From NCBI GenBank assembly GCA_013112545.1, contig JABFGJ010000013.1, forward strand, positions 1 through 64,000: a stretch of 64,000 nucleotides of DNA. The letters are read 5' to 3'. Made by a program: the position numbers and the translations under genes. This document shows positions 17,625 to 19,112 of this stretch, piece by piece (position 1 is the first letter of the stretch; every line of letters begins with the position of its first letter). The DNA is from Bacteroidota bacterium (GTDB lineage: Bacteria > Bacteroidota > Bacteroidia > Flavobacteriales_E > Vicingaceae). The notes beneath the pieces are model-generated. The model searched no databases. It was not told where the DNA came from and was given only the letters and a program-made list of their open reading frames with translations.

Positions 17625-17693
17625 GTAAAGTTCCTTATTGGAAACCGATTTTTTAATATTGATATTATGTTAGCCAATGCAAAGCGTTTTTAA
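17625..17693. other. Short unique spacer before the repeat array
   Basis: Nothing recognisable is seen between the stop of the membrane protein gene and the first repeat copy. Confidence 0.5.
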
Positions 17694-18281
17694 TCAAAGC
17701 CCTAGTTTGCTTTGCTACCTTGCATTCCGCTCATAAAGTCAGGGCTTTTACGATAGCATCCTTTTTTATACTTAAATTTCGTTCAGTGGTATTCTCTTTT
17801 GTTCGTCATTGCGAGGAGATACGACGAAGCAATCTGAACAAAAGATTTCTGGTTTAAACTCCATTCAATTTCACACAGAATAAACAAATAAAATCATCAT
17901 TTGAGAATCAAAGCCCTAGATTGCTTTGCTACATTCCATTCCATTCACAAAGCCAGGGCTTTTACGATAGCATCCTTTTTTATACTTAAATTTCGTTCAG
18001 TGGTATTCTCTTTTGTTCGTCATTGCGAGGAGATACGACGAAGCAATCTGAACAAAAGGTTTCTGGTTTAAACTCTATTCAATTTCACACAGAACAAACA
18101 AATAAAATCATCTTTAAGAATCAAAGCCCTAGATTGCTTCGCTACATTACATTCCATTCACAAAGCCAGGGCTTTTACGATAGCATACTTTTTTATACTT
18201 AAATTACGTTCAGTGGTATTCTCTTTTGTTCGTCATTGCGAGGAGGTACGACGAAGCAATCTGAACAAAAGGTTTCTGGTT
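17694..18281. repeat. Left part of a 214-bp tandem REP-like repeat array
   Basis: Three copies start at 17694, 17908 and 18121 (periods 214 and 213 bp). Each copy has two hairpins. The first runs from AAAGCCCT to AGGGCTTT with an ATTGCTT-type core. The second (17796-17844 in copy 1) has 9-bp outer arms CTTTTGTTC and GAACAAAAG around GTCATTGCGAG...CGAAGCAATCT. The inner cores of the two hairpins are reverse complements of each other. The core matches a dispersed repeat common in Bacteroidota genomes. The third copy stops abruptly after GGTTTCTGGTT at 18281, where the sequence leading to the GIY-YIG gene begins. Confidence 0.9.
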
Positions 18282-18311
18282 AGAATATTTAACTTTATAT
18301 ATTTTAGTAAC

Positions 18312-18599
18312 ATGAAAAGAATGTATGTCTATATGATGACAAATAAGAACAACAATGTATTATATACAGGGGTTACAAACAATTTAGAAAGACGAATTAA
18401 AGAACATAGATCCACTGACAATATGGGGTTTACTGGCAGGTATAAGTGCCATAAATTAGTGTATTTTGAGATTTATGATTCTCCAATGAAAGCAATCAAT
18501 AGAGAAAAACAGATAAAAGCTGGTTCAAGAAAAAAGAAAAATGAATTGATTGAAAAGGAAAATATAGAATGGAAAGATTTATCCGCTGATTGGGATTGA
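18312..18599 (+). CDS. GIY-YIG nuclease-family protein embedded in the repeat array
   Basis: This 95-residue single-domain protein belongs to the UvrC-N/GIY-YIG superfamily. The first motif is 'YVYMMTN' (4-10) in place of GIY, the second is 'LYTG' (17-20) in place of YIG, then Arg27 in 'NLERRIKEH' and Glu65 in 'NREKQIK', the expected catalytic arginine and metal-binding glutamate. The reading frame is open back to 18213, but that extension is a translation of the repeat itself ('RHCEEVRRSNLNK'), so I start at the ATG at 18312. Standalone proteins of this type are common and mostly uncharacterised. The gene interrupts an array of hairpin repeats, which suggests it either mobilises or lives in such elements. 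Composition is similar to its neighbours. Confidence 0.85.
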   Translation: MKRMYVYMMTNKNNNVLYTGVTNNLERRIKEHRSTDNMGFTGRYKCHKLVYFEIYDSPMKAINREKQIKAGSRKKKNELIEKENIEWKDLSADWD

Positions 18600-18628
18600 T
18601 TACTGTATGTTCGATATTTGGTTTTAAG

Positions 18629-19112
18629 TAAAAGCCCTAGATTGCTTCGCTACATTACATTCAACTAGCAATGACAGGGCTTTTACGATAGCATCCTTTT
18701 TTATACTTAAATTTCGTTCAGTGGTATTCTCTTTTGTTCGTCATTGCGAGGAGGTACGACGAAGCAATCTGAACAAAAGGTTTCTGGTTTAAACTCTATT
18801 CAATTTCACACAGAACAAACAAATAAAATCATCATTTGAGAATCAAAGCCCTAGTTAGCCCCACTACCTTGCATTCCGCTCACAAAGTCAGGGCTTTTAC
18901 GATAGCATACTTTTTTATACTTAAATTGCGTTCAGTGGTATTCTCTTTTGTTCGTCATTGCGAGGAGGTACGACGAAGCAATCTGAACAAAAGGTTTCTG
19001 GTTTAAACTCTATTCAATTTCACACAGAACAAACAAATAAAATCATCATTTGAGAATCAAAGCCCTAGATTGCTTCGCTACATTACATTCCACTCGCAAT
19101 GACAGGGCTTTT
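18629..19112. repeat. Right part of the 214-bp REP-like repeat array
   Basis: Copies start at 18629 and 18843 (214 bp apart), and a final partial copy runs 19057-19112. The last and the first of these have the intact first hairpin with the GCAATGACAGGGCTTTT right arm. The other copies have a changed arm (CAAAG[T/C]CAGGGCTTTT). The array thus ends exactly at a hairpin boundary, and the copy right after the GIY-YIG gene also begins at one. Confidence 0.9.

Follow-up and report, generated by a model that had tools for sequence, protein, structure and literature searches.

The window, which is the whole stretch of 64,000 nucleotides analysed here, carries an array of hairpin repeats around a short gene for a GIY-YIG nuclease (Table 1). 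The five units start at positions 17686, 17900, 18113, 18621 and 18835, with a spacing of 214, 213, 508 and 214 bp, respectively, and the other four are 92-95% identical to unit 1, which bears out the arrangement of five units and a partial one that a first-pass annotation had drawn around the gene. Unit 3 breaks off at about 18281, as annotated, and the array restarts at about 18621-18629. The full unit was found at no second site in the 3.27-Mb genome to which the window belongs.

Two hairpins, A and B, recur along the array. The outer arms of A differ from those of B, as had been claimed: AAAGCCCT/AGGGCTTT was found in six of six copies of hairpin A and CTTTTGTTC/GAACAAAAG in five of five copies of hairpin B. 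The inner cores of A and B, annotated as reverse-complementary throughout, are so for the hairpin A directly 3' of the gene and for the last one, the only two copies of A with an intact core; in units 1, 2, 3 and 5 the core has decayed and the outer arms are kept. The hairpin B directly 5' of the gene has its REP core (CGTC-ATTGC..GCAAT-CT) at 18231-18260 and the hairpin A directly 3' of it has the inverted core at 18641-18676, so that the order is B(+), gene, A(-). When folded as single-stranded DNA, two of the three hairpins tested were better than dinucleotide shuffles (z -3.2 and -3.7), and the third, which was truncated, gave z -1.9. A lone hairpin A was located on another contig (C11:15582; L019, 1506-1558) by a single blastn match (58 bp, 86%); it has the same outer arms, without hairpin B and without the gene, which suggests that the outer arms travel along with the core.

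Table 1. Coordinates of the array, its hairpins and the nuclease gene in the window
Feature	Positions	Strand	Remarks
Whole array	17686..19112	+	five ~214-bp units and a partial sixth
Hairpin A, unit 1	17696..17748	-	outer arms kept, inner core decayed
Hairpin B, unit 1	17796..17844	+	
Hairpin A, unit 2	17910..17962	-	outer arms kept, inner core decayed
Hairpin B, unit 2	18010..18058	+	
Hairpin A, unit 3	18123..18175	-	outer arms kept, inner core decayed
Hairpin B, unit 3, directly 5' of gene	18223..18271	+	arms CTTTTGTTC/GAACAAAAG; REP(+), tag outward
GIY-YIG nuclease gene, 95 aa, clade R2	18312..18599	+	PF01541, tree, invariant columns
Hairpin A, unit 4, directly 3' of gene	18631..18683	-	arms AAAGCCCT/AGGGCTTT; REP(-), tag outward
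Hairpin B, unit 4	18731..18779	+	
Hairpin A, unit 5	18845..18897	-	outer arms kept, inner core decayed
Hairpin B, unit 5	18945..18993	+	
Partial sixth unit	19049-19112		
Hairpin A, partial unit	19059..19111	-	inner core intact, 19069-19104

The open reading frame between units 3 and 4 is intact and was matched to PF01541 with E 5.7e-18. Y7, Y18, R28, E65 and N84, which we take to be the catalytic Tyr, Tyr, Arg, Glu and Asn of the GIY-YIG fold, are all present and stand at invariant columns of the alignments; by the domain and these five residues the protein belongs to the GIY-YIG nuclease superfamily.

Read from the tag, the intact hairpins have the form (C/T)GTC-ATTGC…GCAAT-CT. CGTC-tagged REPs were described from five phyla including Bacteroidetes, mostly as dimers with the tags outside, as a class including the neisserial dRS3 and the rickettsial RPE-4 and RPE-6 that 'apparently lack a dedicated transposase' (Di Nocera et al. 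2013, PMC3733652). The window repeats share the tag (hairpin B has CGTC, hairpin A has TGTC) and the tags-outside dimer, the gene being framed by B(+) and A(-). Their stem starts with AT and has 5-6 bp around a loop of at least 16 nt; because the inner stems are shorter and the loops longer than in the published form (8-9 bp and 4-5 nt), they are judged from sequence to be CGTC-like, not strict members of the CGTC REP superfamily. The annotated hairpin repeats stand, refined to CGTC-like REPs of the published type (PMC3733652). The window core including the loop GAGGTAC recurs in other Bacteroidota, at up to hundreds of copies per genome; by pattern searches, on which all genome-wide REP counts are based, 405 REP copies were counted in genome G081 and 128 in G155. 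Long complementary arms outside the tag were seen in the window and in none of the other REPs tested. Among the papers listed for the repeat's own sequence, none was relevant.

GIY-YIG clades and their neighbouring sequences

Matches to PF01541 were gathered in 80 relatives with their flanks ignored, and 100 loci, nearly all from that list, were studied. A tree of 117 domains, with weakly supported deep branches, gives three groups, T, R1 and R2, and the window nuclease falls into R2 (36 rows, support 98). In Bacteroidota, the density of the published CGTC pattern within 500 bp of R2 genes was 51 times that found beyond 2 kb; near R1 genes the pattern was absent, and near T genes it stood at background level. 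When intergenic DNA alone was used, the enrichment was 6.5-fold for R2 and none for R1 or T.

Clade R1 adjoins palindromes with YGAGC..RTCGAR, a motif defined post hoc, whose density near the gene is 31 times that beyond 2 kb in the loci studied (for example, L173, L174, L187, L192 and L195) and which is enriched at R1 only. Clade T mostly adjoins tRNA genes: 28 of 28 tRNA-side GIY-YIG genes lay within 150 bp of a tRNA gene on the same strand, with the tRNA upstream in 23 (for example, L007 at G000:C9:72360, L010 at G000:C1:187735, L008/L009 at G000:C14:36971-37536, L012 and L013), and 33 of the 127 short GIY-YIG open reading frames of L103-L202 were tRNA-adjoining. A second copy of the tRNA 3' end with its terminator is often present beyond the other end of the gene, and the nuclease subclades tend to track the type of tRNA (Met-cat, Arg-tct, Val-tac, Leu and others); the clade looks like a case of insertion at tRNA genes with tRNA-specific targeting. 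Next to tRNA-Met, ten tandem GIY-YIG genes with a period of 457 bp were found at L183 (G009:C9, ~906-910 kb) and eight with a period of ~370-380 bp at L184 (G013:C2, ~183.6-186.4 kb). There is no tRNA within the window, so the tRNA association of these sister nucleases does not explain the array; no Rfam family scored above threshold in the entire window. Exact direct repeats of at least 20 bp flank the gene at 21 of 32 tRNA-type loci and at 42 of 85 other loci (a figure inflated by tandem copies in two arrays, which were counted singly), versus 4 of 575 control positions.

For an independent set, genome contigs were scanned with the R2 alignment, which gave 80 loci under many phylum labels, and the CGTC REP detector was left unchanged. 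A CGTC REP lay within 500 bp of the R2 gene at 65 of the 80 loci, on both sides at 46, and was not detected at 15. At least one REP-flanked R2 locus was found in 14 phylum labels, several of which rest on single metagenome bins and with at least one match (L237) that looks spurious; gene and REP are thus paired across phyla, and the pairing reaches beyond the Bacteroidota named in the annotation. REPs at many of these loci fit the published stem and loop form. In intergenic DNA alone, REPs were 6.7 times denser near the gene. The enrichment of this GIY-YIG clade near the repeats, as the annotation had anticipated, is therefore strong and specific (51-fold, 65/80, 6.7-fold; not R1 or T).

The bracketing orientation of the window, REP(+), gene, REP(-) with the tags outward, was found at 32 of the 47 two-sided loci, over which the median gaps from the matched stretch to the REP were 37 and 30 bp. 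On a Rhizobium plasmid, a gene-bearing dimer is followed by gene-less dimers, which is the window's layout in a different phylum. Nuclease and stem also covary: for between-phylum pairs, nuclease distance was correlated with REP-stem distance (r 0.36 versus 0.00 ± 0.05 permuted). The R2 protein is strongly constrained: 94 pairs had a usable dS and gave a median NG86 dN/dS of 0.11, most of the remaining pairs being saturated. In a Neisseria gonorrhoeae record (L317, 1125-2707), an unannotated R2 reading frame lies inside a dense cluster of dRS3-type REPs.

Association by genome was surveyed across 198 genomes of Bacteroidota that were 90% or more complete. The window REP core was present in 18 of 22 genomes with a close relative of the nuclease (E<=1e-34) versus 28 of 176 others (p 7e-10), and in 17 of 21 once the genome of the window is set aside; the cut-off was chosen after viewing the list and the statistics ignore kinship among the genomes. 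Independent movement of repeats and gene, which the annotation had named as the outcome speaking against it, is not what these counts show, in that the close nuclease predicts the REP type. Over the same 198 genomes, more distant R2 nucleases were not significantly associated with the window REP core (OR 1.5). What speaks most clearly against a simple one-to-one relation of nuclease and REP is the complete genome G081 of the same class, which has 405 copies of the GTCATTGCGAG..GAAGCAATC hairpin, no nuclease at E<=1e-20 and no Y1 transposase. In a reverse test that started from a few core loci of relatives, GIY-YIG genes were found at two sites only outside the window genome, hence most REP copies are without the gene.

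The same survey bears on the possibility that a RAYT or IS200-like transposase moves the REPs in trans and that the GIY-YIG gene is a passenger or bystander. REP/RAYT systems are a known precedent (PMC3733652, PMC8266576) and the window genome has a single Y1 transposase; in the 3.3-kb locus of that gene, however, neither a CGTC REP nor a core was found, Y1 transposases (the RAYT superfamily) did not predict the window REP core in the 198 genomes (OR 2.0, p 0.13), the 405 copies of G081 occur without one, and CGTC units flanking such transposase genes were not found in published work. With the Y1 transposase neither flanked by CGTC REPs in the window genome nor predictive of the REP, this explanation is unsupported and very unlikely.

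Filled and empty sites and a candidate mobile element

In the gap between fnrL and a response-regulator gene on Sphingobium plasmids, REP(+), gene, REP(-) was found in two aligned strains, a single double-tagged palindrome in two other strains and no REP in a third. These REPs start with GTCAC, not GTCAT, and are missed by the strict detector. When the 354 bp between two ACCCCGGG half-stems are taken out of TomMM15, CGTCACCCCGGGTCAAGCCCGGGGTGACG is left, which is the exact REP of TomTYG64; filled and empty sites thus differ by exactly 354 bp, equal to the gene and one REP, within a REP. Judged from the aligned strains, the difference would read equally as gain or loss. The junction, the sole exact one, is an 8-bp direct repeat of the half-stem, which recombination inside the palindrome fits equally. 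Inverted REPs bracket the R2 gene, as terminal inverted repeats of an insertion sequence or MITE might. Shinella also has both filled and empty strains. At the site equivalent to the array, the upstream gene, glyA and the downstream gene are all retained in two sister genomes from a single genus, with neither REP nor nuclease between them (the gap measures 253 bp in G021 versus 1622 bp in the window). The comparison with empty sites that the annotation had called for yielded filled and empty sites in Sphingobium, and flanking genes without the array in the sister genomes.

These sites weigh against a host function, in which the hairpins would act in transcription ends or mRNA stability and a cellular nuclease would trim or resolve them, the association being one of linkage and not of mobility. 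Gene-adjoining hairpins can work as terminators; the outer arms of hairpin A are better preserved than the inner cores, and purifying selection acts on the nuclease protein. A patchy distribution, more than one copy in a genome, filled and empty sites and exact flanking repeats point instead to mobility, and REPs stand on both sides with the tags outward, which makes a host function most improbable.

The locus is probably a set of tandem CGTC-like REP dimers that holds a resident, autonomous, minimal mobile element; as the partner enzyme of CGTC REPs, the GIY-YIG nuclease is a strong candidate. The element would consist of REP(+), the GIY-YIG gene and REP(-), tags outward. The nuclease would most likely recognise its cognate hairpin, in extruded or single-stranded form, and cut it; when the break is repaired on the template of a copy that bears the gene, the gene and a REP would be written into the site, as with a homing gene. 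Solitary REPs and dimers without the gene would represent excised or non-autonomous forms; recombination between palindromic half-stems could leave solo REPs or gene-less dimers, and the tandem units may have arisen by recombination, unequal exchange or repeated repair between REP copies. The specific pairing of gene and REP in many phyla, the bracketing, the covariation, the presence or absence of the gene with one REP exactly at a REP and the constraint on the protein are observed; the cutting of the hairpin, the direction of gain or loss and the making of gene-less copies by the enzyme are the parts we infer.

Several observations count against a mobile element. Most REP copies have no nearby gene, and the 405 copies of G081 exist without a close nuclease. 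The repeat of the window genome is nearly confined to the array locus, with no genome-wide spread seen, and a REP was undetected at 15 of 80 loci. From a GIY-YIG nuclease one would expect the cutting of DNA and not its joining, and no strand joining is known for GIY-YIG enzymes. Of the hairpin-amplifying pair of element and enzyme first proposed, the pairing and the filled and empty sites hold; amplification is at present a presumption, and gene-less copies, with G081 as the extreme, tell against it.

The main rival is a homing-type parasite, in which the gene moves from REP to REP and uses abundant, pre-existing intergenic REPs spread by something else. It would account for the empty Sphingobium sites that already carry a REP, for the many gene-less REPs (one genome with 405 and no close nuclease) and for the sister clade T, which adjoins tRNA genes as clearly pre-existing targets. 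On the other hand, no other mobiliser is known for the CGTC class (PMC3733652), Y1 transposases do not track the REP, the third Sphingobium strain lacks a REP in the fnrL gap, and the association at the level of cognate pairs, together with the covariation of nuclease and stem, would require a very narrow choice of target. We consider a homing-type parasite unlikely, and the autonomous element is kept as the preferred reading.

It is an evenly balanced matter whether the wider claim holds, namely that there is an unrecognised class of compact elements of ~350-400 bp, each of which has a lone GIY-YIG nuclease in place of a transposase to spread its hairpin ends, that this class accounts for the orphan CGTC REPs across bacteria, and that the sister clades play a like part with individual tRNA genes and with a second family of palindromes. 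Short repeats of the CGTC class are widespread and were without an enzyme as of 2013. If the GIY-YIG nuclease is what drives them, transposon-like elements would have been built repeatedly by a chemistry for which no strand joining is known; a large set of small nuclease genes, so far uncharacterised, would gain a role and a source of compact hairpin-specific cutters would be at hand. Each nuclease is packaged with its candidate substrate, which makes the question testable, and an enzyme shown to move the repeats would count as categorically new.

Comparison with known systems

The window repeats resemble the CGTC REPs (PMC3733652) in the (C/T)GTC tag, the stem starting with AT, the tag-outward dimers and the intergenic position, and at most cross-phylum R2 genes the adjoining REPs have the published form, with the gonococcal R2 gene sitting in a cluster of such REPs. 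They differ in the stem and loop lengths given above and in the extra outer arms inside which the stems sit; the published class, moreover, came without an enzyme, for which a candidate is proposed here. No report of a GIY-YIG nuclease paired with REPs was found in the open-access library searched. The nearest sequences with known structure, of similar length, are the UPF0213 GIY-YIG proteins (PDB 1zg2 and 1ywl), which are named as hypothetical proteins only and for which a repeat partner was not found in the literature searched.

Free-standing GIY-YIG homing endonucleases of the I-TevI type are likewise small enzymes with the gene in its apparent own target, and the Sphingobium sites, where the gene interrupts a REP that also exists empty, would fit a homing gene if the REP is its target. 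R2 differs from them in having no intron and no separate DNA-binding domain, and its presumed target is a repeated hairpin, not a conserved gene (tRNA genes in clade T).

With the RAYT (TnpA-REP) systems and REPINs of the GTAG class, the locus shares short inverted REP pairs that bracket the gene of the partner enzyme and gene-less pairs elsewhere. The first-pass annotation had recognised this RAYT-like layout around a different enzyme, and rightly so: the inverted REPs bracket a gene whose product is a GIY-YIG nuclease (PF01541), whereas RAYT is an HUH Y1 transposase, and the tag is CGTC or TGTC, whereas that of RAYT REPs is GTAG. REP/enzyme pairs are already known from RAYTs; what is new here is a REP partner enzyme of a different class.
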